Below, one piece after another: positions 4,593 to 31,207 of a stretch of DNA of 33,053 nt (the first letter of the stretch is position 1; each line of letters begins with the position of its first letter). This DNA is from a virus. The translations under genes and the position numbers were made by a program. The stretch lies in IMG/VR virus record IMGVR_UViG_3300020450_000005, positions 1-33,053 of that record; one strand, given 5' to 3'. A model generated the notes under the pieces. That model did no database searches, was not told where the DNA came from, and saw only the letters and a program-made list of their open reading frames with translations.

Positions 4593-4698
4593 ACAGCTTT
4601 CTTTTGATTTAGAAGATAAAGAACCTATTCCGTTTGAGTTTGTTCTTCCAGAAGACTGGCTTTATTTTTTATTCTGTGATGCTGTTAAAGAGGTTTGA
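4576..4698 (+). CDS. Possible small acidic protein at the end of the late operon
   Basis: This 40-codon frame begins at TTG 4576 inside the endolysin gene, or at TTG 4561 in the same frame, and ends at TGA 4696-4698. It reads LNSTSEQLSFDLEDKEPIPF, then EFVLPEDWLYFLFCDAVKEV. The protein-like composition, the absence of stops and the location at the tail of the operon support it. The lack of an ATG and of a clear Shine-Dalgarno count against it. It overlaps the convergent leftward gene by 14 bases. No terminator-like hairpin is visible where the two arms meet. Confidence 0.4.
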   Translation: MNSTSEQLSFDLEDKEPIPFEFVLPEDWLYFLFCDAVKEV

Positions 4699-4939
4699 TT
4701 TGCCATCTGTGTTTTTTTTCTTCCCATTCTTTTTTTAATCTTTCTACTATTCCTTTATGTTTTGGGTTTAGCATTTGCATACCACAACCACACAATACTT
4801 TTGCAGGCGCAGGAGTAAGCTCCCAGTTGAGATGATGTATGTGTTTGCAGTGAGGACACTCACATCTAGTTCTTCCTTTTCTATCTTTGCCTACTACTCT
4901 CCATTCTGTTGGTTCTAGTTTTCTAAATTTTAAACTCAT
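4685..4939 (-). CDS. Small zinc-ribbon protein
   Basis: This is an 84-aa protein from the ATG at 4939, which overlaps the stop of the upstream gene. An upstream in-frame start at 4972 is less likely. It has two cysteine knuckles: C26, C28 and C31 in CECPHCKHIHHL, and C50 and C52 in CGCG, about 20 residues apart. Together they can build one four-Cys zinc ribbon. The flanks are basic (GKDRKGRTR, KKEWEEKKHRW). It is probably a nucleic-acid or protein adaptor. It is the last gene of the leftward arm. Confidence 0.75.
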   Translation of the reverse strand: MSLKFRKLEPTEWRVVGKDRKGRTRCECPHCKHIHHLNWELTPAPAKVLCGCGMQMLNPKHKGIVERLKKEWEEKKHRWQIKPL

Positions 4940-5157
4940 GATTGATTTTCCCCTGTATATAAATCTATACATGCATTGTCATTGTTCCAATCTAGTTCAT
5001 CAGGTGGGAACTCAGGTTGAACATCATCTGGTATTGTAAATTTAATATGCACTTGGTTGTTTTGTATAGAGGATATAGTAAAATCAAACTTGTACTTGTA
5101 CTGAATACTTTCACATTCTCTTAATATCATTCTTATATTTCTTGATTGTGTGGTCAT
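4936..5157 (-). CDS. Hypothetical protein (73 aa)
   Basis: The gene is coupled to both neighbours by ATGA-type overlaps (start at 5157, stop at 4936). The protein starts MTTQSRNIRMILRECESIQY, has an alternating beta-like central part and an acidic Pro/Asp-rich C-terminus (IPDDVQPEFPPDELDW...). It has no membrane helix and no motif known to me. It lies between a signal-bearing small protein and a zinc-ribbon protein in the distal early operon. Confidence 0.7.
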   Translation of the reverse strand: MTTQSRNIRMILRECESIQYKYKFDFTISSIQNNQVHIKFTIPDDVQPEFPPDELDWNNDNACIDLYTGENQS

Positions 5158-5363
5158 ATTTTCTCTCCTAGATTAACAGGTCTATCAGGTGGTGCAGTAT
5201 ATCTATTATAGTTATACCTCTCAAAGCATTGGTCGCCAAGACCTGTATTGGTTAAATGTTCAGCGACTTCTATACATAATGCCTTGTCTCTAAACTCTAT
5301 TGAGTACAATGATCTTGGTGTTGCTTCTAATGAAATTAATACAAGAATGTATGTAATATACAC
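5154..5363 (-). CDS. Small exported or membrane-anchored protein (69 aa), GTG start
   Basis: GTG at 5363 is preceded by AAGGAGATTACT, an ideal Shine-Dalgarno at 6 bases, which fixes this unusual start. The first residues, MYITYILVLISLEA, form a short hydrophobic segment. The rest (YSIEFRDKALCIEVAEHL, then GDQCFERYNY) holds two cysteines that could pair outside the cytoplasm. Similar short proteins ('VLVxLxxxPRLYSxEFxDKxxCE') occur in marine phages from memory. The 145-bp gap upstream contains a G5T...AC5 inverted repeat (5382-5387 and 5413-5418) flanking an AT-rich stretch, so a promoter may lie there. Confidence 0.75.
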   Translation of the reverse strand: MYITYILVLISLEATPRSLYSIEFRDKALCIEVAEHLTNTGLGDQCFERYNYNRYTAPPDRPVNLGEKI

Positions 5364-5508
5364 AGTAATCTCCTTAATTTAGGGGGTCACTATACTATAT
5401 AAAAAGTATTTAACCCCCCTGTATGGCTAAATTTCAGCCTCTAATTTGATGGGATCCCCTGCAAAAACTATGAAAGGACTAGAAACGTAGTAATTGCAGA
5501 GGATCTTT

Positions 5509-5949
5509 TTAGAATTGTGTTTCTGGTTCAGACTTCCAACTATTAGATTGTTTGGGTGCAGAAGAAGTATCAGAAAAATCCTTTGATGAAAACTCTAGTC
5601 CTAAATATTTTTCTTGTGTTTCTTTATTCTGATTTACCCATACAGATAAGTTTTTGTATTTGGAAGTAGTCTTGTAATTGCCATCATGAGGTTGTCTATG
5701 CACAACATTGATATGTGCTTTGTAATCTGGTCTTCCGTCTTGCTCACCTTGTTTATCACTATTAGGTTTGAGTTCACCTATTCTTTGATAGATTCCAGTG
5801 CTACTACCTTTGCTTCCGTATTGTACTGTAGCTACAATAAACTGCATGTTGGCATCTTCTACAGATACAGAACCTTGATATTTTACTTCTGTGCTATTGT
5901 TTTTAATACTAGATATAGTTCCTTTATCTTTAATATATGTATCTGTCAT
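5509..5949 (-). CDS. Candidate single-stranded DNA-binding protein (position and C-terminus)
   Basis: The protein is 146 aa, starting at 5949 behind AGGAGGAATT. The N-terminal two thirds alternate short beta-like strands (GTISSIKNNSTEVKYQGSVS, QFIVATVQYG), consistent with an OB-like barrel. The last 35 residues are low complexity (Ser, Pro, Asn, Lys) and end in EPETQF. A flexible tail finishing in acidic residues plus a final Phe is the hallmark of SSB proteins that recruit partners. It lies directly downstream of the annealing-protein gene, where phage SSBs often sit. I cannot demonstrate the fold, so this is inference from tail and context. Confidence 0.5.
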   Translation of the reverse strand: MTDTYIKDKGTISSIKNNSTEVKYQGSVSVEDANMQFIVATVQYGSKGSSTGIYQRIGELKPNSDKQGEQDGRPDYKAHINVVHRQPHDGNYKTTSKYKNLSVWVNQNKETQEKYLGLEFSSKDFSDTSSAPKQSNSWKSEPETQF

Positions 5950-5957
5950 AATTCCTC

Positions 5958-6449
5958 CTATAGATTTGTGACATTGTTACTGTTGTTGACGTATTTATTG
6001 TTATCCCATTCACCTAAAAAGATATCAGCATCACAACCAAAGTGGGATAAGCCTTTGGTAAGTGCGTCAGTCATAGCTTTCTTTGGAGCTTCATCATCAA
6101 GTTTACCACGTGGGTCTTTCCTTGTTTCTTTTATCATGGGCATACAGCTTGCGATAGGCCCAATAGCTTTCTCCTTTTCGCCCACCCAGATAGTAACATA
6201 AGCAAAAACAACAGGTATTACTTCCTCTCCTCTTCTTATGTCTTTTGTTTCGTAGGTAGCGTTCCACCCCCACGCTTTCCCTACTTGACCAATTTCATCT
6301 GTCATCTTTCTTACTTGGTAGTGAGCATTGATAGTAGTTATCTTTCCACCCCATGATGCAGGTACACTCTTTGTGTAAGCAGGATTAGTAGTTGAGAGTC
6401 TATCCCATAGTTCTGAGTTTTGTTTTTGATAATCTTGTCTTGTGTTCAT
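5958..6449 (-). CDS. Single-strand annealing protein, Rad52/Sak-like
   Basis: The protein is 163 aa with an AGGAG site whose bases lie in the upstream gene's last codons. The N-terminus has LWDRLSTTNPAYTKSV and GKITTINAHYQVRKMTDEIG. The C-terminal half has the diagnostic block DDEAPKKAMTDALTKGLSHF followed by GCDADIFLGEWD. This 'DxxKKAxTDAxxKALSxLGxxADVF' helix is shared by phage Rad52-superfamily annealing proteins (Sak, DUF1071-type). It would bind ssDNA exposed by the exonuclease encoded next to it and promote annealing, making concatemers or repairing ends. The stop is 8 bases from the SSB-like gene. Confidence 0.85.
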   Translation of the reverse strand: MNTRQDYQKQNSELWDRLSTTNPAYTKSVPASWGGKITTINAHYQVRKMTDEIGQVGKAWGWNATYETKDIRRGEEVIPVVFAYVTIWVGEKEKAIGPIASCMPMIKETRKDPRGKLDDEAPKKAMTDALTKGLSHFGCDADIFLGEWDNNKYVNNSNNVTNL

Positions 6450-6450
6450 T

Positions 6451-7353
6451 TTATTCTCCTTTTATATTTACTCTTAGTGTACCTTTAGTATCACGCTTGA
6501 TATTAAGAAGCGGACTATAAACTTCTCTTGCATTATCAGGTACATGTTCTAATAAAAACTTTCTTGTTTCTTTTAGTTTGCTTTGTGTTTTGTCTGATTC
6601 GTTTTTTGTTTTGATATAGTTATTTGCATCATTAATAAATGAATTGCTTTGTGACATATCAACTTTAATACCACCATTTACAGGTATCTTATCTATATCT
6701 ACGTCAGTTTGTTTTGTTTTATATTTTGGTGGTGCTGTTGCTTCTGGACACTCTGGGTCAAACTTATCTACATGTTTCTTGAATCTAAAAATAGCATCAA
6801 GCATGTCTTTTTGATATCCTGCATAACTACTCACCTTTACACAATGCCATACGTTTCCAAAGATAATAGGGAAGTAGCATCCACCTATGGGGTAGTAGTA
6901 TTCAACAGTTGAAAAATTTTGGTGTAGAAGGTACAGATAGAATTGCATCTGCGGCATGTATGCTTCTATTGCTTCATCTATATTCTTAAATCTCATACCC
7001 AAAGCACTGGTATGTTTAGCTTCTACAGCACATAGTCTACTTGAACCATCTATACATACATCATCAAGATTGCCACGCATAAATCCTTCACTAAATAATT
7101 GTCTTGGGTTTATATTATCTATCTTGTTTTGTTTCGCACATTCAGTATGTTGCTTATAGAACCACTCAATATTAAATGCTTCTGTTACTGTACCTAGTTG
7201 TACTTGGAATACATCTGATAAGTCTGGGTGTTTTACTTGCCCAGTTTTTTCTTTCCAGAGATCATACCAATCTCCACTCATAATTTTAGCAACATCACTG
7301 CCACCAATATATTTGTTGCGGTCTTTCTCTGCCGCAGTAAGTACTACTGTCAT
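6451..7353 (-). CDS. YqaJ/lambda-type recombination exonuclease
   Basis: The product is 300 aa from the ATG at 7353. The upstream ATG at 7368 begins the Shine-Dalgarno region (ATGAAAGGACAAATC), so 7353 is preferred. Motifs of the PD-(D/E)XK phage exonuclease family are all present: IGGSDVAKIMSGDWYDLW (residues 16-33), E58 in GTVTEAF, D97/D98 in GNLDD, E111-A-K113 in AVEAKHT, and PQMQFYLYLLH (from residue 134). The C-terminal 80 residues are a charged extension. It should degrade one strand of linear dsDNA 5' to 3', loading the neighbouring annealing protein: a Red/RecET-like pair. A promoter with an internal dyad and a structured leader lie upstream. Confidence 0.9.
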   Translation of the reverse strand: MTVVLTAAEKDRNKYIGGSDVAKIMSGDWYDLWKEKTGQVKHPDLSDVFQVQLGTVTEAFNIEWFYKQHTECAKQNKIDNINPRQLFSEGFMRGNLDDVCIDGSSRLCAVEAKHTSALGMRFKNIDEAIEAYMPQMQFYLYLLHQNFSTVEYYYPIGGCYFPIIFGNVWHCVKVSSYAGYQKDMLDAIFRFKKHVDKFDPECPEATAPPKYKTKQTDVDIDKIPVNGGIKVDMSQSNSFINDANNYIKTKNESDKTQSKLKETRKFLLEHVPDNAREVYSPLLNIKRDTKGTLRVNIKGE

Positions 7354-7374
7354 GATTTGTCCTTTCATGTTTGG

Positions 7375-7440
7375 TGTCAGAACACATGGGGAAATATTTT
7401 TTTTTTACACAGGCAATGGTAAAAGTCATATGTTCTGACA
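7375..7440 (-). promoter_or_regulatory. Long hairpin in the leader of the exonuclease mRNA
   Basis: Arms 7375-7388 and 7427-7440 are inverted repeats. Ten base pairs (TGTCAGAACA / TGTTCTGACA) are perfect, and the next four pair on the minus-strand RNA with one U-G wobble, which would be a C-A clash on the plus strand. The 38-base loop holds a run of ten A residues in the mRNA sense. The 3' arm ends 12 bases before the AAGGA site of the exonuclease gene. It may be a regulatory leader structure or paired protein-binding half-sites. Confidence 0.55.
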
Positions 7441-7445
7441 GATTA

Positions 7446-7474
7446 AGACTAATTGCAAGAGTGCAATAAGTCAA
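7446..7474 (-). promoter_or_regulatory. Leftward promoter with operator-like dyad in its spacer
   Basis: Read on the minus strand, TTGACT (7474-7469) and TAGTCT (7451-7446) are separated by 17 bases, matching the sigma-70 layout (five of six and three of six consensus bases). The spacer holds the dyad ATTGCA-4-TGCAAT (7452-7467), which fills it almost exactly. A dimeric repressor bound there would block polymerase. The HTH proteins at 8343-8949 are candidate regulators. The promoter would serve the exonuclease, annealing and SSB-like genes. Confidence 0.5.
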
Positions 7475-7483
7475 GCCCTTAAT

Positions 7484-8026
7484 TTACTGGGATAATTTAG
7501 CTAGCCAAGTTTCTCCTGTTTTGCGAAATGGATCAACAAAGGCTACTCTATCTCTTACCATACACCGCAATGCATAGATGTTACTATCTTGAAGTATTGA
7601 TTGTGTCCAACCTTTAGGCTGTGGAAAGTACTGACAATTTTTTATTACAGTACGAACCATATGATTGACCATATCCATTGGGTATTCTGATATTATTTCT
7701 GCTGTTGTACTTATAATAGCATCAACATTTTTATCTTTATCAAAGCGTAACACACATGCTTTCTGTTTCATTATGTCCTGAACTTCTTTTTTGTTGTACT
7801 CTTCAAAATACCAATCAACCATCTTCATTATTTCTTTGTGTGATTCTAGATTGGTTGGTGTGTATTTCATTTCTAAAGGCTTACCCATATAGCCAGTGAA
7901 CTCAACACCTTCAAGTCTGTTGTGTGCATAGCGTAGTGCAGTCAATAGATTTTCTGTTGCTTTCATTGGGTCTTTGTAGTCACATAAAAGCATACGACCA
8001 TCTGCTTCATCATAATCTTTAGTCAT
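7484..8026 (-). CDS. Unknown early protein, possibly replication-associated
   Basis: This 180-aa soluble protein is rich in charged residues. The central segment DKNVDAIISTTAEIISEYP, then VRTVIKNCQYFPQPKGWTQS..., loosely recalls the 'YFPsxxE' stretch of helicase loader or inhibitor proteins of phages (G39P, lambda P type). That resemblance is weak and is my inference. No nucleotide-binding loop or metal site is seen. It starts by overlapping the nuclease gene's stop (start 8026, nuclease stop 8023). As the phage has no recognisable helicase, primase or polymerase, a factor that recruits the host replisome would be expected somewhere in this arm. Confidence 0.7.
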   Translation of the reverse strand: MTKDYDEADGRMLLCDYKDPMKATENLLTALRYAHNRLEGVEFTGYMGKPLEMKYTPTNLESHKEIMKMVDWYFEEYNKKEVQDIMKQKACVLRFDKDKNVDAIISTTAEIISEYPMDMVNHMVRTVIKNCQYFPQPKGWTQSILQDSNIYALRCMVRDRVAFVDPFRKTGETWLAKLSQ

Positions 8027-8391
8027 TTTAATTCCTTTCTGTTTTTGTTTAGTGTTGGTGCTGTGTATTTTTCAAATACATCTTGGTTCATTAATACTAT
8101 TTGTTTTATATTTTTTCCTCCTTCACTCTTTTTAAATATTGCTATGTCATTATTTTCTAATACCTCCCAAATGTTTGGGAAGCGTGATTTCTTATTTACA
8201 TTTCTGTACTTACACTCAACATACAATATTTCTGTTTGTAAGCTAATTGTTATATCACTGCGTAAGTCTGCTCGTAGGTGTCCATGCTGTCCACTAGCTA
8301 TCTGCTTTGCACATACAACACCAAGAGAATCCAGCCATTCTTTTATTTTGTTTTCGTGGTAGTTCCCTTTGCTTTTTTCTTTGGAAGGCAT
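8023..8391 (-). CDS. PD-(D/E)XK nuclease, Holliday-junction-resolvase-like
   Basis: The protein is 122 aa with the order of an Hjc or VRR-NUC type nuclease: KGNYHENKIKEWLDSLG (E13 in the first helix), an exposed basic loop with GQHG, D46 in RSDITIS, and E59-C-K61 in LYVECKYR. These are the metal-binding residues of the fold. It probably cuts branched DNA made by the exonuclease and annealing pair, before packaging. Its first 49 bases overlap the 3' end of the HTH gene at 8343 in another frame. Confidence 0.75.
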   Translation of the reverse strand: MPSKEKSKGNYHENKIKEWLDSLGVVCAKQIASGQHGHLRADLRSDITISLQTEILYVECKYRNVNKKSRFPNIWEVLENNDIAIFKKSEGGKNIKQIVLMNQDVFEKYTAPTLNKNRKELK

Positions 8392-8591
8392 TTGTCTTTA
8401 TAAACCTCTCTGTGTTTGGCTATTAGTTCTATAGCATCTTTAACTTTTATTGCAGTTGTATACCTTAACTCTACTCCTCTCATGTTTCTGTAGTAAGTAG
8501 AGTAAGGTATACCTGCGAACTTAAATGCTGAAGCTAGATCCACATGTGTGGTTTGCGATAGAGTTTCTAGTTGTGCTAAGTATGTCTTCAT
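8343..8591 (-). CDS. Small HTH DNA-binding protein
   Basis: It is 82 aa from ATG 8591. ATG 8609 and TTG 8627 are alternative starts, and none has a strong Shine-Dalgarno. Residues about 20-48 (LASAFKFAGIPYSTYYRNMR) read as a helix-turn-helix of the Cro/CI or Sau3AI-regulator kind, and the C-terminus is a basic tail (KKKAKGTTTKTK). It is a candidate early regulator that could bind the dyads at 7452, 10586 or 12015. Its start lies inside the upstream gene, with 71 bases shared. Confidence 0.65.
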   Translation of the reverse strand: MKTYLAQLETLSQTTHVDLASAFKFAGIPYSTYYRNMRGVELRYTTAIKVKDAIELIAKHREVYKDKCLPKKKAKGTTTKTK

Positions 8592-8949
8592 AATAACTTG
8601 TTGTAGCATTATTTTCTTTTGCGTCAAAGATTATTTGTTTATTATGTTGCAATACTGCACTCCCTTTTTTATTAATACCATAGGTATTGTAGATACCAAG
8701 AGCAAAAGCATGACTATTATAACGTGTAGAAACAATACAGTTATGTTTATGTTCTAAAACATTAAGAACACTACTCACATATGAAGTTTCTTCTTTTGCA
8801 AGTTCCATTATTCTTTTATGTGTTGTATGATTTACACTTCTTGTTTTGTCTGGATATTGTTTATTTAATAAAAATATAGAAGTTAGTATTTTTAATTGTC
8901 GTACTGTTAGTATAATATTATATGCCTGTTTTATTTCATGTAACATCAT
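8521..8949 (-). CDS. Winged-helix-like regulator or replication protein
   Basis: The product is 142 aa from ATG 8949 (AAGGA 9 bases upstream, ATGA overlap with the previous stop). In-frame codons up to 8988 are less likely to be translated. VRQLKILTSIFLLNKQYP followed by SVNHTTHKRIMELAKEETSY and VSSVLNVLEHK resembles a MarR-type winged helix. The last 24 residues are encoded by DNA that also encodes the N-terminus of the HTH protein at 8591, and they look like out-of-frame filler. The native protein may therefore have been extended through a lost stop. Confidence 0.6.
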   Translation of the reverse strand: MMLHEIKQAYNIILTVRQLKILTSIFLLNKQYPDKTRSVNHTTHKRIMELAKEETSYVSSVLNVLEHKHNCIVSTRYNSHAFALGIYNTYGINKKGSAVLQHNKQIIFDAKENNATTSYYEDILSTTRNSIANHTCGSSFSI

Positions 8950-9203
8950 AATAATTTTCCTTGTGTTGTGATTGGGTTTGGATTCCATTTTATATCTACA
9001 AGACCATACGTTTTTGTCTTGTCAAATTTATCTGTAAATGTACCTCTTGGTGTTAAGTATTTTAATTCGTCATAACTCACTGACATTTCCTGTCCTTGAC
9101 AACGTATTACAATACCTGCTTTTGCATCGCATGCTTTCTGCCATTGTGTACTTCTTATAGATACAACACCATGCCAAGTACGCTTTACTTTTATTGGTTT
9201 CAT
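8946..9203 (-). CDS. Hypothetical early protein (85 aa)
   Basis: The gene is coupled at both ends (start 9203 overlaps the previous stop, and its stop overlaps ATG 8949). The protein is basic at the N-terminus (MKPIKVKRTWHGVVSIRS), then contains a beta-rich centre (GIVIRCQGQEMSVSYDELKY) and a short C-terminus. A small SH3-like or Tudor-like barrel is possible from the strand pattern, but I recognise no family. Confidence 0.7.
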   Translation of the reverse strand: MKPIKVKRTWHGVVSIRSTQWQKACDAKAGIVIRCQGQEMSVSYDELKYLTPRGTFTDKFDKTKTYGLVDIKWNPNPITTQGKLL

Positions 9204-9463
9204 TCTATTATTACTCCATGATTTGCTGAAAAGTTTTTTAAGTCCTCTTCAATTTTGTGTTCGTTTTGATATTCCATACCTTCATGTACCATACTTATAA
9301 GTCTATCCTGTTCTTGTTTGGCACAACCTACTAGTAATTCCTGTTGTGGTATTTGTTGGTTTGGAAAAATAACTTTACCCAATTTTACAACATCATCATG
9401 TGATAATTTACTCATTGCTTTTATTAGGTTTTGTATGTTAATAGTTGTGTTATATGACATCAT
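9200..9463 (-). CDS. Hypothetical early protein (87 aa)
   Basis: The start is ATG 9463 or the adjacent ATG 9460, behind GGGAGATAAC. The protein is mostly helical. LIKAMSKLSHDDVVKLGKVI is a two-helix stretch, and the C-terminal part (KQEQDRLISMVHEGMEYQNE) is charged. There is no membrane segment and no catalytic motif. It overlaps the following gene by 4 bases and the small preceding frame (9460-9615) by 4 bases. Confidence 0.7.
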   Translation of the reverse strand: MMSYNTTINIQNLIKAMSKLSHDDVVKLGKVIFPNQQIPQQELLVGCAKQEQDRLISMVHEGMEYQNEHKIEEDLKNFSANHGVIIE

Positions 9464-9615
9464 GTTATCTCCCTGTCTGTTGTCATTGTTTTGTGTTTGG
9501 GAACTTGGGTGGGCAAATTAATGCCCACCCTTTTTTTATATTTACGTTTCTTATTTTGATTTATATCTTTTGGTATAGTTCTTAATTTAAATTGTTCTGC
9601 AATAGATTGTGTCAT
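9460..9615 (-). CDS. Small basic protein (51 aa) containing a perfect hairpin
   Basis: This frame fills the gap between the DUF932 gene and the 87-aa gene. ATG 9615 is one base from the TAA of the DUF932 gene, and its TGA overlaps the next ATG. It starts MTQSIAEQFKLRTIPKDINQ and continues with a Lys/Arg-rich stretch. The tight fit at both ends supports a real gene. However, the Shine-Dalgarno is weak, and the sequence contains a 9-bp perfect inverted repeat with an A-run (9507-9537) that looks like a terminator on the other strand. The gap could therefore be a regulatory spacer instead. Confidence 0.5.
   Translation of the reverse strand: MTQSIAEQFKLRTIPKDINQNKKRKYKKRVGINLPTQVPKHKTMTTDREIT
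9507..9537 (+). terminator. Intrinsic terminator pointing against the early operon
   Basis: The stem GGGTGGGCA (9507-9515) / TGCCCACCC (9522-9530) is a perfect nine pairs with a 6-base loop, followed by seven T on the plus strand. This is a textbook rho-independent terminator for rightward transcription, yet all genes here run left. In the leftward mRNA the same hairpin is preceded by seven A and followed by no U-run, so it should not terminate there. Confidence 0.75.
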
Positions 9616-9616
9616 T

Positions 9617-10546
9617 TTAGTAAGTCCATTGTTTCAATAAGTTTGTTACTTTGGCATGCCTTTTGTTACTGTCATTTATCCTAGCTACTGGCGACTCATT
9701 ACGATAAGCATTTTTATCTTCTGATGCAGGAGTATGTGTTGCCCATTCAGTCATAGCATTGTATGTAGCCCAAGCATTATGACCAAGCTCTTTACGATAG
9801 TCTCGTAATAGTCTTGTTAGAATTGTTACTTGTGTTTCATTTACTTTACGTTGACCATTTACAATATCAGTACATAAATATTTACGAAACATTTGCATAG
9901 CCTGTTGTCTTGATTGTCCTGATTGTACCATCTTATTGTATACATCTTCACTCTTCATAAATATTTCTGATGAGTGTTTTGTGTTTTCAAGTAAGCTGTT
10001 ATAGTTTGTATTTGCTGTATGTTTAAGAACAGAACCTGTAATCGCTTGACCATACATCATTCCATTTAGGCATATTAAACGCATAGCAAGGGCTTTGATC
10101 GCCAGTTTCCAGTTGCCACAATATGAATTGTAGAACTCCATTTTGAAACAAACAGTATCATTTAAACCAGAACGCACATCAAAGGATTGATCTGGGAAAT
10201 ACACTTCTCCTCTTAGCTTGCGTCCATTCTCATAGACTCTGATGTTGGGTATGACTTTACCTATATGTAGTTTCTCAGCTACTTCAAGAACCTTGTTTAC
10301 TATTGGTTCATGTAGCTGTTCAACATATTTAGATTTATGTTCACCAACAACACACATATCTCTTGTGTTAATTAGTTGTCTGCTTTCTTTGTTTTCTACA
10401 GTATGTTCAACACCATCAATAGTTATAGTTGATGTACAATAGTTAGCCCATTTTACTGGGAATGTATATTCTTCTGGGTTGTGGTATTCTTTAGCATAGA
10501 TTTTATCTAGCAAAGGTTTAGTTGCAATTGTATTGTCTAGTGGCAT
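9617..10546 (-). CDS. DUF932 (phage/plasmid-like) protein
   Basis: It is 309 aa from ATG 10546. An in-frame ATG at 10558 is part of the Shine-Dalgarno ATGGAGATAACA and is unlikely to be used. The segment DTVCFKMEFYNSYCGNWKLA, then RLICLNGMMYG and KHTANTNY, is the conserved heart of the DUF932 family found on phages and plasmids (function unknown; often near anti-restriction or recombination genes). It is the largest leftward gene product. It has its own upstream AT-rich inverted repeat and is separated from the preceding transcription unit by a terminator. Confidence 0.8.
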   Translation of the reverse strand: MPLDNTIATKPLLDKIYAKEYHNPEEYTFPVKWANYCTSTITIDGVEHTVENKESRQLINTRDMCVVGEHKSKYVEQLHEPIVNKVLEVAEKLHIGKVIPNIRVYENGRKLRGEVYFPDQSFDVRSGLNDTVCFKMEFYNSYCGNWKLAIKALAMRLICLNGMMYGQAITGSVLKHTANTNYNSLLENTKHSSEIFMKSEDVYNKMVQSGQSRQQAMQMFRKYLCTDIVNGQRKVNETQVTILTRLLRDYRKELGHNAWATYNAMTEWATHTPASEDKNAYRNESPVARINDSNKRHAKVTNLLKQWTY

Positions 10547-10585
10547 TGTTATCTCCATTTTAGTTTTGTGTTAGTAATTTAGTTT

Positions 10586-10625
10586 AGCATAAAAAAAATA
10601 TTGAATAAATAATTTTATTTATGCT
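10586..10625. promoter_or_regulatory. AT-rich inverted repeat upstream of the DUF932 gene
   Basis: Arms 10586-10599 and 10612-10625 are inverted copies matching at 13 of 14 bases (AGCATAAAAAAAAT / ATTTTATTTATGCT) around a 12-base spacer. It lies about 40 bases upstream of the DUF932 start and downstream of the minus-strand terminator at 10704. It is probably an operator or a promoter element. I find no convincing -35/-10 pair with correct spacing nearby. Confidence 0.4.
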
Positions 10626-10703
10626 GATTGAGTATGTATTGTTGTCGCAATATTTTTTTTCTGGGCGCATTCCCCCTTCCTGTGCAATGGTTCAGAACTG
10701 AGT

Positions 10704-10741
10704 ACAAAAATAGCACAACCTAGCTATAAGCTAGGTTGTGC
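10704..10741 (-). terminator. Leftward intrinsic terminator after the first early unit
   Basis: GCACAACCTAGC (10713-10724) and GCTAGGTTGTGC (10730-10741) form a perfect 12-bp stem with a 5-base loop. On the minus strand the hairpin is followed by TATTTTTG. It terminates the unit that begins at 11636 and includes the 35-aa membrane peptide gene, 6 bases after that gene's stop. Confidence 0.85.
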
Positions 10742-10747
10742 GGTTGG

Positions 10748-10855
10748 TTAGAGTAGGCAACCTATAAACACGATTGCTGTTATTAGGGTGATAAAGAAGG
10801 TGAACTCAATCACCTCCTTTACCTTCCAGTTAAGGTTACTATACCATTTAAGCAT
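10748..10855 (-). CDS. Small single-span membrane peptide (35 aa)
   Basis: ATG 10855 lies inside the last codons of the upstream gene (8-base overlap) and the frame ends at TAA 10750-10748. The peptide is MLKWYSNLNWKVKEVIEF followed by TFFITLITAIVFIGCLL. It has an amphipathic, aromatic and basic N-terminus and then one strongly hydrophobic helix. A terminator hairpin follows immediately, which argues that the transcript was shaped to include this gene. It is co-translated with the first early gene. A candidate role is early membrane takeover or superinfection exclusion, but this is only suggestion. Confidence 0.6.
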   Translation of the reverse strand: MLKWYSNLNWKVKEVIEFTFFITLITAIVFIGCLL

Positions 10856-11636
10856 CAGTTGTCTCACCCATTTTAGCAGACTCTGCTTTAGCATCTTCTA
10901 GCATCTTGGCGACTGTTGCAAACTCAGTGCTATTAGCTTTCTTTTCGTCTGCAGTCTTTAGGCTTGATGCTTCGTTGCTGATTTGAGTCAGTCTTTTTTG
11001 GAGTGACACTATGTACTGATTGGCTGTACGTCTTTCATCTGCCAATTTCTTGGTACGTTCCTCAAGCTCCTTTTGCTTAGTCCAGTGCATGTAGTCATAG
11101 TTGAAGAACAGTTTGAAACAAGCTAGCATTGCCAATTCACATTCCATGAACTTAGGAAAACCTTCTCTGTTGTTCTCAAAGACAGCCCTCTCTCTTTGGA
11201 GTTTGTTGTCGTCCATGATTGCTTGAGTGTCCTCTTGCACCTCATGTGTGTAAGTATTGACTGATTTGTACTTGTCTGTACTGTCTTTGTCCTGAATACT
11301 TTGACGATCTAGGGCTGTTTTCATGTGAACTATTGGCGATTGATTTGCCTTTGTTCTTATATTTACATTGTAGTGAGACAGTACATTCAAGATTGGGATA
11401 TAGAATCGTTCACCCCAGTATGTCCTTTTACCTACAGGGTCATACTCTACTGGTAGGATTTGCCCTGTTTTGATGTCATACTCCTCACTTGTTACAGTGT
11501 TGAGTTGGTAGTCACCACAAAGCTCTTTGAACTGTTGATATACTAGCCAAGTGATGACATTGTCAGCAGGTCGCTTATCAGTGAATGCTAGTATTGTTTT
11601 TATTGTATTATCTATTTGTTTAGTTGTATATTCCAT
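10848..11636 (-). CDS. First leftward (early) gene, unknown coiled-coil protein
   Basis: The protein is 262 aa, start ATG 11636 with AAAGGACTAACA upstream. The N-terminal 100 residues look globular (NVITWLVYQQFKELCGDY...KRTYWGERFYIPIL). The middle is polar, and the last 85 residues are a long charged helix, probably a coiled coil (QKELEERTKKLADERRTANQ, then ISNEASSLK and AKMLEDAKAESAK). There is no signal peptide or catalytic motif. Its base composition is visibly richer in G and C than neighbouring early genes, which might indicate a different origin. It is the gene next to the divergent control region, so it is probably the first expressed and could be a host-takeover protein. A TAAAAT -10-like box lies on the minus strand at 11688-11683. 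Confidence 0.75.
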   Translation of the reverse strand: MEYTTKQIDNTIKTILAFTDKRPADNVITWLVYQQFKELCGDYQLNTVTSEEYDIKTGQILPVEYDPVGKRTYWGERFYIPILNVLSHYNVNIRTKANQSPIVHMKTALDRQSIQDKDSTDKYKSVNTYTHEVQEDTQAIMDDNKLQRERAVFENNREGFPKFMECELAMLACFKLFFNYDYMHWTKQKELEERTKKLADERRTANQYIVSLQKRLTQISNEASSLKTADEKKANSTEFATVAKMLEDAKAESAKMGETTDA

Positions 11637-12552: not shown

Positions 12553-12735
12553 ATGAAATTAACACCAGAAGAAAGAAGAATACTTAGGATAGTTGTTAAG
12601 AAAGTGCATTTAAAGCATCACCCAGAACAATTTTGTACTGATTATGAAGCTGATAAAATGATAGCTACAATTGCTGATAGCACTAAAGAAAAGCTATTAA
12701 AGGTAGGTAAAGATCATAATGTTGATGCTTTATGA
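12553..12735 (+). CDS. Hypothetical protein between the terminase subunits (60 aa)
   Basis: The protein is MKLTPEERRILRIVVKKVHL, then KHHPEQFCTDYEADKMIATI and a short helical end. It is all-helical, basic at the N-terminus, with one cysteine. No strong Shine-Dalgarno is seen. Its stop overlaps the terminase large-subunit start (ATGA at 12732), so it is translationally coupled to TerL. This position would suit a terminase accessory protein, but the family is not known to me. Confidence 0.75.
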   Translation: MKLTPEERRILRIVVKKVHLKHHPEQFCTDYEADKMIATIADSTKEKLLKVGKDHNVDAL

Positions 12736-14255
12736 CTGATTTTAAGTACAAACCTGATGGCAAGGTGCTTAAAGATTTTATGAAAGACTCTACATTTTTT
12801 AGAGGTATTCGTGGCCCTGTTGGTTCTGGTAAATCTGTTGCTTGTTGTGTTGAGGTATTTAGAAGGGCATTACAACAGGAAAAGAATAAAGATGGAAAAC
12901 GCAAAACAAGATGGGCTGTTGTTCGTAACACCAATCCACAACTAAGAACAACAACAATTAAGACTTGGTTAGATTGGTTTCCTGAGAGTGTGTGGGGGAA
13001 GTTCCACTGGTCTGTTCCCTACACACACCACATTCAACAAGGTGATTTAGATATTGAGGTTATCTTCTTAGCCCTAGATAGACCAGAGGATGTAAAAAAA
13101 TTATTATCTCTTGAAGTTACTGGTGTCTGGGTAAATGAAGCAAGAGAAATACCAAAAAGTATTATTGATGCTTGTACTATGAGGTGTGGTAGATTCCCTT
13201 CTATGCGTGATGGTGGTGCTACTTGGTCTGGTGTTATTTGTGATACCAACGCACCAGAAGAAGATCACTGGTGGGCAATAATGTCTGGAGAAGTTCCTGT
13301 TCCTGATCACATTCCTATGGAACAGGCAAAAATGTTAATCAAACCTGATAACTGGATGTTTTATGTACAACCTCCTGCTATGATAGAAACCCTTGATGAT
13401 AAGGGTGAAGTAGATAATTACAAGGATAATAAGAAAGCAGAGAACACAAAAAACATGCTTGGTAGTTATTATTCTAATCTTATTCGTGGCAAAACCAAAT
13501 CATGGATTGATGTATATGTTATGAATAGATTGGGTACAATACAGGAAGGAAAACCTGTATATCCGCAATTTGTTACAGAAACACATATAGCAGAGGAAGA
13601 AATACCTATTGCTATTGGTGTGCCTTTGTATGTTGGCATTGATTTTGGTCTTACACCTGCGGCTGTATTTGGTCAGAAAGTAAGAGGGCGGTGGTTAATA
13701 CAAGCAGAAATTGTTGCAATTGATATGGGCATTGTGCGATTTGCAGAATTGTTAAGACAAGAAATAGCTACTCGTTTTCATAACCTTGAAGTTAATATTT
13801 ATGGTGATCCAGCAGGTGATTTTAGAGCGCAAACAGATGAATCTACACCATTTCAAATACTAAGAGGAGCAGGATTAACTGCATATCCTGCACCAAGTAA
13901 TAGTGTTGATTTAAGATTAGAGTCTGTTTCTTCCCAACTTACTAAAATGGCTGATGGCAAACCTGCTTTTATGATAGATAGAAGATGTCAAAGTTTAATA
14001 AAAGGATTTCAAGGTGGCTATGCATATAGACGTATGCAGGTATCAGGAGAAAGATATGCTGACAAGCCAGAAAAAAATATGTTTTCTCATATTCATGATG
14101 CTTTACAGTATTTAATGTTAGGTGCAGGAGAAGGTAGGCAATTAATTTCTGGACAAGCACCCCTAAAATCGTTTAATGCTAGAGGTAGCTTTGATATTTT
14201 TCGTAATAGACAAGTAAAAAAACCCAGACGAGAAGGGTTATGGGCTAGAATGTAA
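12732..14255 (+). CDS. terL: Terminase large subunit (packaging ATPase and nuclease)
   Basis: The protein is 507 aa. The Walker A GPVGSGKS is at residues 28-35, and Walker B with the catalytic Glu is in VWVNEARE (E136). The C-terminal RNase H-like nuclease shows VGIDFG (D304), YGDPAGD (D359) and HIHDALQYL (D456), the expected three acidic metal ligands. It drives DNA into the prohead through the portal and cuts the concatemer. Its N-terminus is short: the Walker A lies within 35 residues, as in other podoviral TerL proteins of this type. The order TerS, small ORF, TerL, small Cys-Gly ORF, portal is typical of marine podoviruses. Confidence 0.95.
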   Translation: MTDFKYKPDGKVLKDFMKDSTFFRGIRGPVGSGKSVACCVEVFRRALQQEKNKDGKRKTRWAVVRNTNPQLRTTTIKTWLDWFPESVWGKFHWSVPYTHHIQQGDLDIEVIFLALDRPEDVKKLLSLEVTGVWVNEAREIPKSIIDACTMRCGRFPSMRDGGATWSGVICDTNAPEEDHWWAIMSGEVPVPDHIPMEQAKMLIKPDNWMFYVQPPAMIETLDDKGEVDNYKDNKKAENTKNMLGSYYSNLIRGKTKSWIDVYVMNRLGTIQEGKPVYPQFVTETHIAEEEIPIAIGVPLYVGIDFGLTPAAVFGQKVRGRWLIQAEIVAIDMGIVRFAELLRQEIATRFHNLEVNIYGDPAGDFRAQTDESTPFQILRGAGLTAYPAPSNSVDLRLESVSSQLTKMADGKPAFMIDRRCQSLIKGFQGGYAYRRMQVSGERYADKPEKNMFSHIHDALQYLMLGAGEGRQLISGQAPLKSFNARGSFDIFRNRQVKKPRREGLWARM

Positions 14256-14500: not shown

Positions 14501-16054
14501 ATGGACGATTTAATAGCACTAAAATATCTTGAAAAGTATGATAAAGCAAAAGCACACAGGCAACATTTTGAAGATTTGTTTGAAGAGTGCTATGAATACG
14601 CATTACCTCAAAGAGAGTCTTTTTACACTGAATCAATAGGCGAAAGAAGGGATGATAAAATATTTGACGAAACTGCTGTTGTTGGTGTACAGGAATTTGC
14701 ATCCAGATTACAGTCTGGATTAGTTCCTAACTTTGCAAGATGGGCAGATTTCACAGCAGGAAGCGAAGTGCCAAAAGAGGAGAGGGATGGTGTTAATAAC
14801 GACCTTGATGAAGTTACAGAATATGTTTTTGAAGTTATTCAGAACTCTAATTTTGGACAAGAGGTTCACGAAAGTTTTATGGATTTGGCTGTGGGTACAG
14901 GAGTACTTCATGTACAGGAAGGTGATGCTGTTAATCCTATTATTTTCTCTGCTATTCCTTTACCTCATGTGGTTTTAGATACAGGGCCAGATGATAAAAT
15001 AGATCATGTGTACAGAGAAAGAAAAGTAAGATTTGAAGATTTGCCAATTTTATATCCTAATGGTACATTTACAGAAGAACTATTACGATATACAGAATCA
15101 TCACCAGATACTAAAACAAAAATACTAGAAGTTATTGCAAGAGATTACTCACAAGTAAATGAAGATGTGTTTTTGTTGCATGTTATAGATACAACTACAA
15201 AAACGTGTATACGCAAAGATTTATTTAGAGGATTAGGCTCTAATCCTTTTATATGTTTTCGTTGGTCTAAATGTGCAGGTGAGATCTATGGACGTGGGCC
15301 ATTAATTAACGCATTAAGTGCAATTAAAACTACTAACCTTACTATAGAACTTATACTTGAAAATGCACAGATGGCTATATCAGGCATATACCAGATGGAT
15401 GATGATGGAATTATAAACCCAGATACCATATCTTTAGTTCCTGGAACTGTTATACCTAAAGCACCAAACTCTGGAGGCTTACAACCTATAAGAGCCGCAG
15501 GTTCTTTTGATGTTGCCAACTTAATTCTTTCAGATATGAGGCTAAATATTAAAAGAGCTTTATATAATGACATGCTTGGAAATCCAGACCGTACTCCTGC
15601 AACTGCAACAGAAATAGCAGAACGTATGGCTGATCTTTCAAGACGTATTGGTTCTGCTTTTGGAAGATTGCAAGCGGAATTAGTACAACCAGTATTACAA
15701 AGAGTTGTGTATATACTAAAAAAACAAGGACGCATTGAATTGCCTACTGTAAATGGTAGACAGGTTAAGATACGTTCTGTTTCTCCACTCTCACAGGCAC
15801 AGGCAAACCAAGATATTTCATCAATGGCAAGATTCCTGCAAACTGTAGGGGGTACATTTGGCCCTGAGATGTTGAATATCTTAATTAACTCTGAAGAATC
15901 AGCCGCTTATCTTGCTAAGAAATTTGGTGTACCAGATAACTTGGTTAGGGATAAAGTAGAGCGTGACCAGATGATTCAGCAAATTCAACAGATGCAACAG
16001 ATGCAACAGCAGATGGCTCAAATGCAAGGAGAACAACAGATTGCCGCAGAATAA
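14501..16054 (+). CDS. Portal (head-tail connector) protein, podoviral type
   Basis: This 517-aa protein is of the size of T7 gp8-like connectors. The N-terminal HRQHFEDLFEECYEYALPQR, then FASRLQSGLVPNFARWADF, and a central NAQMAISGIYQMDDDGIINP followed by RAAGSFDVANLILSDM and TPATATEIAERMADLSRRIG are characteristic of the Podoviridae head-to-tail connector family. The dodecamer sits at the unique vertex, binds TerL during packaging and then the tail tubes. The C-terminus is an unusual Gln/Met repeat (QQIQQMQQMQQQMAQMQG). Its last 14 bases overlap the next gene's TTG start. Confidence 0.95.
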   Translation: MDDLIALKYLEKYDKAKAHRQHFEDLFEECYEYALPQRESFYTESIGERRDDKIFDETAVVGVQEFASRLQSGLVPNFARWADFTAGSEVPKEERDGVNNDLDEVTEYVFEVIQNSNFGQEVHESFMDLAVGTGVLHVQEGDAVNPIIFSAIPLPHVVLDTGPDDKIDHVYRERKVRFEDLPILYPNGTFTEELLRYTESSPDTKTKILEVIARDYSQVNEDVFLLHVIDTTTKTCIRKDLFRGLGSNPFICFRWSKCAGEIYGRGPLINALSAIKTTNLTIELILENAQMAISGIYQMDDDGIINPDTISLVPGTVIPKAPNSGGLQPIRAAGSFDVANLILSDMRLNIKRALYNDMLGNPDRTPATATEIAERMADLSRRIGSAFGRLQAELVQPVLQRVVYILKKQGRIELPTVNGRQVKIRSVSPLSQAQANQDISSMARFLQTVGGTFGPEMLNILINSEESAAYLAKKFGVPDNLVRDKVERDQMIQQIQQMQQMQQQMAQMQGEQQIAAE

Positions 16055-16307
16055 ACAGACTAATTTAGGTATTGATGGATTTCCCAGACCACTTGAATTA
16101 GAAAAACAAATAAATGCTAACATTCATACTTTGTTTACAAGCCCTACAGGAAATGCAGTTTTAACATATCTTAAAAGTATAACAACACAATCTATACATG
16201 GTTCTGCTGTTACTAATGATGTCTTACGACATGTTGAAGGGCAAAGATATATTGTTGGTTTAATTGAAAATAGAATGATAAAACATGAAAGGAATAAAAA
16301 TGGCTGA
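16041..16307 (+). CDS. Bbp19-like small structural protein, TTG start
   Basis: The product is 88 aa. TTG 16041 is 9 bases behind AAGGAG in the portal gene's last codons. The core LFTSPTGNAVLTYLKSITTQ, then NDVLRHVEGQRYIVGLIENR, fits the small 'FxT..G..vL..L...........LrhxEGqRxlV..I' protein encoded between portal and scaffold in podoviruses (Bbp19 family). Its role is probably in virion assembly. It overlaps the scaffold gene by 8 bases. Confidence 0.75.
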   Translation: MPQNKQTNLGIDGFPRPLELEKQINANIHTLFTSPTGNAVLTYLKSITTQSIHGSAVTNDVLRHVEGQRYIVGLIENRMIKHERNKNG

Positions 16308-17013
16308 AGAAACAACACAAGAAACTGTAGAAACAAATGTTTCACGTGAAACATCTGAGCCTACACGACCAGAATGGTTGCCAGAAAAATTTAAAACAGG
16401 AGAAGACCTTGTTAAATCTTATGAAAACCTTGAAACAAAACTTGGGCAAAAAGATAAAGATATTCGTGAGCAAGTTTTGGCAGAAGCGGAAGCCAAACGT
16501 TACGAAAATCGTCCAGAAAAAAGCGGTGATTACACGCTCCCCAAAGAAATTGACGAAGCGCAAGCGGTAGATAATAATCTTCTACAATGGTGGGCAGGAC
16601 AAGCATTTGATAATGGCTATAGTCAAGAACAATTTGAAGAGGGTATAAAAATTTATGTTGATGCTATTGATTCTTTATTCCCAACAGAAGAAGAAGAACA
16701 AAAAAAGTTAGGAGATAACCATAAAGAAAGAATAGATGCTGTTGGTTTATTTTCTAAGAAATACTTTCCAGAAGAATTACATAATTCTGTTGCTAATCTT
16801 GGTACATCAGCAGATGGGATAAAAGTTTTAGAATATGTAATGAATCAACAAAAAGAAAATTCATTACCAGTAGAGGGAAGTCAGGTAGCAGGAACAGTAA
16901 GTTTAGAAGAGTTACAAACCAAAATGAAAGATCCAAGATATTGGAATCCTTCTAAACAAGATCCTGCATTTATTAAAGAAATTGATGATGGCTTTGCCAC
17001 TTTATACGGCTAG
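16300..17013 (+). CDS. Capsid scaffolding protein
   Basis: The product is 237 aa from ATG 16300, with AAAGGA 6 bases upstream. An in-frame ATG at 16285 precedes the Shine-Dalgarno and is rejected. It is very acidic and helical, with no cysteine. It has PEWLPEKFKTGEDLVKSYEN, then a coiled middle, and a C-terminal DPRYWNPSKQDPAFIKEIDD, all typical of T7-type scaffolds. It guides prohead assembly and leaves before packaging. Residues 14-18 (VSRET) are encoded by a perfect parS palindrome at 16338-16353, an odd feature for a structural gene. Confidence 0.85.
   Translation: MAEETTQETVETNVSRETSEPTRPEWLPEKFKTGEDLVKSYENLETKLGQKDKDIREQVLAEAEAKRYENRPEKSGDYTLPKEIDEAQAVDNNLLQWWAGQAFDNGYSQEQFEEGIKIYVDAIDSLFPTEEEEQKKLGDNHKERIDAVGLFSKKYFPEELHNSVANLGTSADGIKVLEYVMNQQKENSLPVEGSQVAGTVSLEELQTKMKDPRYWNPSKQDPAFIKEIDDGFATLYG
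16338..16353. promoter_or_regulatory. Perfect parS centromere site inside the scaffold gene
   Basis: TGTTTCACGTGAAACA is identical to the near-universal bacterial chromosomal parS consensus bound by ParB (Spo0J) through its HTH. It extends to an 18-bp palindrome with the flanking A and T (16337-16354). In frame it encodes V-S-R-E-T. The chance of this exact 16-mer in 33 kb is about 1 in 100,000, assuming random sequence. It should be a functional loading site for host ParB. The phage itself shows no ParA or ParB. Confidence 0.75.
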
Positions 17014-17623: not shown

Positions 17624-18439
17624 ATGGCAAATAGTATTGACACAGCTTTTATCAAACAGTTTGAATCAGATGTGCATATGGCTTACCAAAGAATGGGGTC
17701 TAAATTGCGTAATACTGTAAGAACTGTTGGTAATGTAACTGGAAACACAGTTCGTTTCCAAAAAATAGCAAAGGGTTCAGCGTCTACAAAGTCACGAAAT
17801 GGTTTAGTGACACCAATGGAATTGGCGCATACTACTGTTGAAGTAACAATGCAGGACTTTTATGCGGCAGAATATATTGATAAACTTGATGAATTGAAAA
17901 CAAATATTAATGAACGTCAAGTTGTTGCTCAATCTGCGGCGGCGGCTCTTGGTCGTAAGACTGATGAGTTACTTTATACAGCTATGGACTCAGGTGCTAA
18001 TTCAACTCAGATACATGATACAGGTTCAGCACTTGCAAAAGCAGATTTATTATCATTATTTGAAACATTTGGTACTGCAAATATTCCAGAAGATGGGCAA
18101 AGATATTTGGCAATGCATCCAAAAGGATACGCAGATTTGTTTAACATAACAGAATTTGCTTCATCTGATTTTGTTGGAGAGCAAAACCTACCATTTGCAG
18201 GTGGCATGACAATGAAAGAATTTTTAGGTTTTAAGATTTTTTCAACTGCCGCTATTACAGCAGGTAAGAATATTGCTTATCATACATCTGCTGTTGGTCT
18301 TGGTGTCAACAATGATGTATCAACAGAGTTGAACTATGTGCCAGAAAGAGTGGCACACCTCGCAACCTCAATGATGTCAATGGGTGCTGTTGTTATTGAT
18401 GACAATGGTATCTATGAAGTCCTTGATAACAATTCATAA
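17624..18439 (+). CDS. Major capsid protein
   Basis: The protein is 271 aa, preceded by a strong AAGGAGATATACT site, consistent with high expression. NSIDTAFIKQFESDVHMAYQ, then TVRFQKIAKGSASTKSRNGL and the long helix QSAAAALGRKTDELLYTAMD match the podoviral HK97-fold capsid family (related to the N4 gp56 and cyanopodovirus capsids). The C-terminus ends TSMMSMGAVVIDDNGIYEVL. It is short for an HK97-type capsid protein, typical of these small marine phages. It forms the icosahedral shell with the scaffold. Confidence 0.92.
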   Translation: MANSIDTAFIKQFESDVHMAYQRMGSKLRNTVRTVGNVTGNTVRFQKIAKGSASTKSRNGLVTPMELAHTTVEVTMQDFYAAEYIDKLDELKTNINERQVVAQSAAAALGRKTDELLYTAMDSGANSTQIHDTGSALAKADLLSLFETFGTANIPEDGQRYLAMHPKGYADLFNITEFASSDFVGEQNLPFAGGMTMKEFLGFKIFSTAAITAGKNIAYHTSAVGLGVNNDVSTELNYVPERVAHLATSMMSMGAVVIDDNGIYEVLDNNS

Positions 18440-29566: not shown

Positions 29567-31207
29567 ATGACAATAAGTACAGCAGACAACACACCAAGAG
29601 TGTCATATACAGTGTCACAAGGAGCAACACAAACAGCATTTGCTGTACCTTTTGAGTTTTTTGCAGATGCAGATTTAAATTTTTATGTTGATGGCACTAA
29701 GAAAACATTAGCAACTCACTATACTACTTCTGCTAATGCGCAAAATAATCTTGCTCATTCGTCTGGCACTACAGGTTATATACACACAACAACAGATAAT
29801 AGTATTACTGGTGCTACTGGTGGTAGTACAGTTGTCATTACTAGAGATATAGCATTTGCCAGAACTACAGATTTCCCAACAGCAGGTGCTTTTGATGTTG
29901 ATACTCTTAATACAGAGTTAGATAGAATTACTGCTATTGCTTCTGATTTAGAAGATTTAGCATCACGATCAGTTAGACTTCTTGATTATGATAGTGAAGT
30001 TTCTATGGAGTTACCTGCATTAGCTTCAAGAAAAGGAACTGTTTTAGGTTTTAATGCAACAACTGGTGTGGCTGAAGCAGGGCCAACGATTGCAAATGTA
30101 AATTCATTATCTGCTATTACAACAAACATAAATACTTTAGCAGGTATAAGTTCTAATGTTACAACTGTTGCAGGTATAAGTTCTAATGTTACAACAGTAG
30201 CAGGTATAGCATCTAATATTTCTTCTGTTGCAGGAGTAGCTTCACTTATAACTAGTGATTTTGTATCTGACCTAAATACCTTGGCTACCAGTGATATAGT
30301 TTCAGACTTAAACACTCTAGCCACAAGTGATGTGGTTAGTGATCTTAATACTCTTGCAACAAGTGATATAGTAAGTGACCTAAATAAACTAGCAACTGAT
30401 GACATAGTTTCTGATTTAAATACATTAGCAACTACAGATATAGTAAGTGACCTCAATACTTTAGCTACCTCTGATATTGTTACAGACCTTAATCTTTTGG
30501 CTACAAGTGCTATTGTAGAAGACTTAAATCTTTTGGCTACAAGTAGTGTAATAGCTGATATGGCTACTCTTGCAGGATCAGGAGCTAATCCTAATATAAC
30601 TACATTAACTGCTAGTGGCGAGATAGTGGCGGCATCTTTGGATATTTCTGGCAATGTTGATGTAGATGGTACATTAGAAGCAGATGCTATGACGTTAAAT
30701 GGTACAGCTATAACAACTACAGCTACATTATCTACAGGTATATCAAATGGTAATCTTCCAGTCTTTACTTCTGGTGTTGTTGATGATGATTTTCTTAGAG
30801 TGTCAGGTACATCAATAGAAGGCAGGAGTGCTTCAGAAGTTCTTAGTGATATTGGTGGACAAGCCTCTTTGACTTTTGGAATTAGTAATACAAATGCAGT
30901 GAAGGTGGATAGCTCTAGTGTAGCAGATGATGAGTATGCTCGTTTTACAGCCAACGGATTAGAGAGTAGAAGTACAGCAGAAGTATTAAGTGACATTGGT
31001 GGTCAGGCTTCACTAACCTTTGGCATATCAAATACCAATGCAGTTAAGATTGATAGTGCTTCTGTTGCTGATGACGAGTACGCAAGGTTTACAGCAAATG
31101 GTTTAGAAAGCAGAAGTACCTCTGAGGTTATATCTGACATTGGAGCAACAACGGCAACAGCCGCAGAAGATACAGCCACAGCCTTGGCGATAGCGTTAGG
31201 AGGATAA
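29567..31207 (+). CDS. Tail fibre with T7 gp17-type N-terminus and tandem repeats
   Basis: The protein is 546 aa. The N-terminal TPRVSYTVSQGATQTAFAVP, then FEFFADADLNFYVDGTKKTL and ATDFPTAGAFDVDTLNTELDR, is the T7 gp17 attachment domain that binds the tail. The shaft consists of 10-residue repeats (AGISSNVTTV, residues about 192-228), nine 12-residue repeats (SDIVSDLNTLAT type, residues 230-337), then a long-unit repeat of 48 residues (residues 426-521). No tip domain is obvious. Receptor binding is likely taken over by the two downstream fibre proteins. Confidence 0.88.
   Translation: MTISTADNTPRVSYTVSQGATQTAFAVPFEFFADADLNFYVDGTKKTLATHYTTSANAQNNLAHSSGTTGYIHTTTDNSITGATGGSTVVITRDIAFARTTDFPTAGAFDVDTLNTELDRITAIASDLEDLASRSVRLLDYDSEVSMELPALASRKGTVLGFNATTGVAEAGPTIANVNSLSAITTNINTLAGISSNVTTVAGISSNVTTVAGIASNISSVAGVASLITSDFVSDLNTLATSDIVSDLNTLATSDVVSDLNTLATSDIVSDLNKLATDDIVSDLNTLATTDIVSDLNTLATSDIVTDLNLLATSAIVEDLNLLATSSVIADMATLAGSGANPNITTLTASGEIVAASLDISGNVDVDGTLEADAMTLNGTAITTTATLSTGISNGNLPVFTSGVVDDDFLRVSGTSIEGRSASEVLSDIGGQASLTFGISNTNAVKVDSSSVADDEYARFTANGLESRSTAEVLSDIGGQASLTFGISNTNAVKIDSASVADDEYARFTANGLESRSTSEVISDIGATTATAAEDTATALAIALGG
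30140..30250 (+). repeat. 30-bp fibre-shaft repeats (AGISSNVTTV)
   Basis: There are three 30-bp units (30140-30169, 30170-30199, 30200-30229) and a partial fourth. The first two differ only at their last codons, unlike the strongly codon-diverged repeats beside them, so this pair is probably a recent duplication. The protein unit AGISSNVTTV is common in marine podovirus fibres. Confidence 0.85.
30254..30577 (+). repeat. Nine 36-bp (12-aa) fibre-shaft repeats
   Basis: Nine in-phase units follow the pattern S-D-I-V-S-D-L-N-T-L-A-T. Units 1-6 are almost identical in protein, and 7-9 are degenerate. At DNA level the same residues use many codons: the SDL triplet is tct-gac-cta, tca-gac-tta, agt-gat-ctt, agt-gac-cta, tct-gat-tta and agt-gac-ctc in units 1-6. 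The 12-residue period with spaced Ile/Val/Leu suggests a trimeric helical or beta shaft. Confidence 0.9.
30842..31129 (+). repeat. Two tandem 144-bp (48-aa) fibre repeats with divergent codons
   Basis: Units 30842-30985 and 30986-31129 encode 48 residues each (LSDIGGQASLTFGISNTNAV and on). I compared them codon by codon: 45 of 48 residues are identical but only 16 of 48 codons, with 29 synonymous changes. A more divergent first unit precedes them (about 30722-30841, with TGISNGNLPVFTSGVVDDDF). Confidence 0.9.

Follow-up and report, generated by a model that had tools for sequence, protein, structure and literature searches.

The virus analysed here is a Hodr-like podovirus known from a 33,053-base record, the whole of which is referred to below as the window. 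Within its scaffold gene it carries one copy of a sequence identical to the chromosomal parS of Alphaproteobacteria. Across the clade to which this virus belongs, we consider it likely that the sequence is a functional parS, kept by selection on the DNA and serving to recruit the ParB protein of the host.

A lone parS among the head genes

The 16-mer TGTTTCACGTGAAACA was found in one exact copy at positions 16338-16353 of the window, enclosed in an 18-bp palindrome, ATGTTTCACGTGAAACAT, that spans 16337-16354 and to which no strand is assigned. The site matched the 16-bp palindromic parS consensus without mismatch, and no second match was found in the window even when up to three mismatches were allowed. 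It is in frame, VSRET forming codons 14-18 of the scaffold gene, so that the presence of an exact parS inside this gene, first proposed by the first-pass annotation, was borne out. The same annotation had held the match to be far beyond chance for 33 kb, and the numbers agree: about 1e-5 exact copies are expected (1.2e-5 from base composition and 1.1e-5 under a first-order Markov model), the dinucleotide shuffles bearing on matches with up to three mismatches and not on the exact match. An RNA element was considered for the palindrome and rejected, as its arms abut without a loop and its motif is that of the host parS.

The scaffold or capsid assembly gene lies on the plus strand, from its start at 16300 (MAEETTQETVETNVSRETSEP..., MAEET...) to a stop ending at 17013, and was recognised by matches to phrog_3742 and phrog_1052 (head assembly) and by tblastn to annotated pelagiphage scaffolding proteins. 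Its N-terminus, which holds VSRET, looks disordered and is poorly alignable. Upstream of the site, also on the plus strand, are the genes for the terminase large subunit (12732-14255; phrog_2) and the portal or head-tail connector (14501-16054; phrog_332, E 9.5e-95), followed in the portal-scaffold gap by a small ORF (16041-16307, plus strand) with a weak Bbp19-like match below the cut-off. The major capsid gene (17624-18439, plus strand; phrog_3437, E 1.6e-56) is found downstream. The closest named relative of the window is Pelagibacter phage EXVC031P Hodr, with a portal DNA identity of 67%. The early region (4685-11636, minus strand) encodes a YqaJ/RecE-like exonuclease, a RusA-like resolvase and a DUF932 protein, its nameable genes also including a second exonuclease-family match; because no DNA polymerase was recognised there or elsewhere among the ORFs scanned, replication of the phage may depend on host enzymes. 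A predicted protein at 29567-31207 contains many near-repeats of the VSDLNTLATSDI type.

The canonical site was present exactly once in each of ten phage records and was missing from Hodr. ORF scans yielded neither ParA nor ParB, and a profile search, which covered ParB, detected no ParB_N domain (PF02195) in these 11 records while matching control genomes; the description of the phage as one without partition proteins of its own therefore held. A tyrosine integrase domain was likewise absent from the same 11 records.

Selection on the DNA site among relatives

A search with the scaffold protein, blind to the site, recovered 80 IMG/VR loci, seven of which carried it (L001-L006 and L070); the 14-bp core was intact in each of the seven, and L006 departed from the 16-mer in the first, outer base alone. 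Further site-bearing lineages came from a pattern search combining the core with the PEW motif of the scaffold. The scan of relatives suggested by the first-pass annotation gave a divided answer, the site being retained at the same place in scaffolds that are as little as about 45-50% identical and absent from many relatives with 70-80% identical portals. On the portal tree it was clustered and spanned more than one clade, with five changes, three of them forced by starred branches. The GC content of site-bearing contigs was 34-39%, and that of most site-less relatives 40-48%, with some down to 36%. In the stretches read from HTVC041P, HTVC201P and Eistla the core site was absent even with up to two mismatches, and it was also absent from the stretch of roseophage CRP-902.

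Where VSRET occurs, its codons do not vary. All 23 distinct VSRET sequences were spelled GTT TCA CGT GAA ACA, and in a codon alignment of 19 distinct scaffolds the VSRET codons were invariant at five of five positions, which was so for one of the 26 other invariant residues with degenerate codons (hypergeometric 3.5e-5); a nearby invariant arginine in the same alignment used AGA, CGA, CGC and CGT. This is the synonymous-site comparison by which the first-pass annotation had proposed to judge its reading, and it came out in favour of the DNA. Scaffolds keeping VSRET in other codons, which would have spoken for the protein, were not found in IMG/VR by codon-degenerate back-translation of VSRET before PEW, in scans that covered AGY serine and AGR arginine codons with PEW spelled with GAA. 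Because part of the aligned sequences had been recruited by the exact-pattern search, the argument rests on the unbiased sets and on the codon-degenerate scans.

In a sister lineage the palindrome has been relocated about 320 bp upstream, between genes. There, L120 (L547) encodes a scaffold without VSRET and carries ATGTTTCACGTGAAACAT exactly, between the portal stop and the small ORF preceding the scaffold, and in the L120/L546 lineage parS stands just upstream of the homologue of the small ORF. At the same intergenic place L546 and L552 have ATGTTTCACGTGGAACAA and L549 has ATGTTTCATGTGAAACAT, both host-type variants. Judging from these loci, the palindrome has become separated from the protein motif and has been kept in the same portal-scaffold interval of the late region, where it always fell in this phage group, coding or intergenic. 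The region preceding the small ORF in L546, L547, L549 and L552 also contains a conserved intergenic block ahead of parS, in which a TTGACT...TATACT-like stretch may be a promoter and an inverted repeat immediately before the site, GGAAGTGAAG ... CTTCGCTTCC, may form a hairpin.

These observations leave little room for a coincidence at the protein level, in which the scaffold needs VSRET and the match of its DNA to parS is accidental. The in-frame position of the site is what such a coincidence would give, and the Hodr clade keeps VSxET despite changed centres (VSHET, VSNET and VSQET). However, besides the zero synonymous variation and the lack of any alternative coding in the IMG/VR scans, the exact codons have a probability of only ~0.02 in one sequence under window codon usage, a scaffold reading VSRGT, with an E-to-G replacement, still keeps a host-type parS, and intergenic sites occur where the scaffold lacks VSRET. 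We regard this explanation as barely credible, and for the clade taken together the data already refute it; codon invariance and relocation indicate instead that the site is maintained by selection on DNA.

Host chromosomal parS and its variants

The exact 16-mer was present in 205 of the 289 genomes of the Alphaproteobacteria, the class of our reference G001 (a Rhodobiaceae MAG), and the reversed control 16-mer in 0 of 289. It lay at or near gidB-parA-parB in all alphaproteobacterial genomes examined for location, confirming its identification as the chromosomal ParB-type centromere. In genomes of plausible hosts the parS at this locus was the same as the phage site, which settles positively the comparison with host parS near parAB/gid that had been called for. 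The phage copy, a candidate site, differs from its chromosomal counterpart in being read in another frame (VSRET, not MFHVKH) and in having no par genes beside it. In the family of G101, probably the Pelagibacteraceae, the exact 14-bp core was next to or inside gidB in 17 of 20 genomes (L502-L521); two others had a one-mismatch core at gidB, and in the last one the contig ends before gidB. The parS at gidB in this family can encode MFHVKH.

Variants of the site recur on both sides. G316, which we take to be the genome of Pelagibacter ubique HTCC1062, has TGTTCCACGTGAAACA, the reverse complement of which, TGTTTCACGTGGAACA, is found at gidB-parA-parB in L513 (probable HTCC1062) and L515. The phage site encoding VSRGT is this same TGTTTCACGTGGAACA, exact in L533 and altered in L541 in the first, outer base only. 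A second variant, TGTTTCACATGAAACA, is carried by eight of 18 genomes in the G273 family (G273 and seven relatives) and by G097, was confirmed to lie at the par locus in G273 and G097, and is the form found in part of the Hodr clade (VSHET, with A or G as last base). These are small alphaproteobacterial genomes (L433, L434; G487-G493), and the CA centre of their TGTTTCACATGAAACA departs from the CACGTG core. The phage variants TGTTTCACGTGGAACA and TGTTTCACATGAAACA appear, then, to match parS variants of hosts, in the sense that the two sets of motifs overlap and not that phages pair with hosts.

Among the isolates only Hodr has a stated host, HTCC1062, and the Hodr site, TGTTTCAAATGAAACA, has an altered centre and differs from the TGTTCCACGTGAAACA of the probable HTCC1062 genome. 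Because other relatives of Hodr, part of its clade, show CACAAG or no site, the Hodr clade may have lost the function of the site or changed it. Record L247 (OQ414635.1) bears the name EXVC031P Hodr and the locus tags EXVC032PBaldr, and its name and sequence may have been crossed. Assignment of hosts by a portal search of genome contigs was tried and set aside: the 11 MAG contigs that it returned belonged to conflicting taxa (Euryarchaeota, Opitutae, Rhodobacterales and others), none of them had the site, and they are probably mis-binned. The hosts of this clade are most probably marine Alphaproteobacteria with small genomes, SAR11 and the like.

The sharing of variants also bears on whether the palindrome is an operator for a phage regulator, or for some other host DNA-binding protein, that resembles parS by chance. 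ParB is the predicted ligand, and to that extent such a reading has an opening; but the variants seen are host parS variants too, a single copy genome-wide is unusual for an operator, and the NBS of Noc type is distinguished from parS by specified positions (PMC7383237). We consider an operator of this kind very improbable.

Lone sites on other phages and the possible use of host ParB

Beyond this clade, the exact 16-mer matched at least 120 stretches in IMG/VR, 119 of which were fetched (median 8.2 kb). The count of at least 119 stretches (L081-L199) compares with five (L602-L606) for the control TGAAACACGTGTTTCA, a palindrome with identical dinucleotide content. Among the matches listed, one of the 119 fetched stretches encoded a relative of ParB (L158) and none a relative of ParA or GidB, with the proviso that in stretches so short individual cases may hide distant par genes or be misassigned host DNA. 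The listed sites lay in genes for a terminase (L153), a portal (L177), a scaffold of a different family (L193), a head protease (L084), primase-helicases (L170, L187) and an endolysin (L172); protein searches found no isolates close to the parS-bearing L193, L084 and L153. These matches suggest that a lone parS is common on phages. They slightly favour the view that unrelated phages repeatedly acquire one host-type parS, a widespread mimicry of the centromere in which the acquired copy would sit inside structural or replication genes and the genomes would be handled by host ParB.

The nearest known case is the Bacillus phage phi29, the genome of which has four exact copies of TGTTCCACGTGAAACA and no annotated parAB; Spo0J, the ParB of its host, has been implicated in steering the phage genome by trapping it in spores (Meijer et al. 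2005, as reported in PMC9437464). Host parS without phage ParB is common to both; in contrast to the several sites of phi29 and its spore-forming host, for which a dormancy route is known, the phages described here have one site, in or beside the scaffold gene, and non-sporulating marine Alphaproteobacteria as hosts. Plasmid-like prophages (P1 and similar) likewise have parS on phage DNA, but they encode ParA/ParB and use a centromere of their own, whereas here the site is of host type and the 11 records yielded no ParB gene. The CtrA or LexA sites of phages (PMC9437464) are also sites for host cell-cycle or stress proteins; those are promoter operators, whereas the present site is a predicted centromere for a sliding clamp. 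Among openly licensed papers we found none on parS in pelagiphages or on orphan parS in lytic phages, and as far as searched, the use of host parS by a phage without partition genes has been described for phi29 only.

It is established that ParB loads at parS as a CTP clamp and then slides (see PMC8367383), and the phage genome should therefore be coated with it. Host ParB would load in this way on the phage parS, the phage supplying no ParB, and slide into neighbouring phage DNA; binding and spreading of this kind are very likely. The host ParA would then treat the coated genome as a centromere and tie it to the ParA/nucleoid positioning system, and the benefit would be to place or faithfully segregate phage genomes in slow or paused infections of slowly growing cells. 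Positioning or segregation is the purpose that we put forward as most likely, by analogy and tentatively, at a little under even odds. Sequence alone cannot choose among positioning or segregation, titration and the silencing of late genes.

With titration, the phage site would be a decoy, the many parS of replicating phage genomes drawing ParB off the single chromosomal parS and halting host segregation or cell-cycle progress to the advantage of the phage. A single site in each phage genome would be enough for this. Nearly all Pelagibacteraceae examined have one canonical parS at their par locus, and the exact 16-mer, where present, usually occurs once per host genome, so that a modest phage copy number would outcompete the host. 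Yet an element that titrates would be expected to gather several sites and each of the records has one, and phi29, with four, causes entrapment and not titration; we think a decoy unlikely. Silencing, to which we give about the same small weight, would have spreading ParB clamps repress the head genes around the site at an early stage or during starvation of the cell. The constant position in the portal-scaffold interval fits this idea, as do accounts of repression near parS3 and parS4 in Pseudomonas (PMC5521831) and of long-range silencing by the KorB clamp (PMC11790492), but no conserved operator or promoter is known at the window site, and the lone parS of other phages sits in unrelated genes.

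If host ParB is indeed recruited to position or segregate these genomes, phages without lysogeny or partition genes would exploit the chromosome-segregation machinery of hosts that are among the most abundant bacteria in the sea. The site would then be a concrete starting point for understanding slow or carrier-state infection in SAR11-like cells, and, as lone parS are enriched in viral contigs, it may be part of a general and testable phage-host interface.
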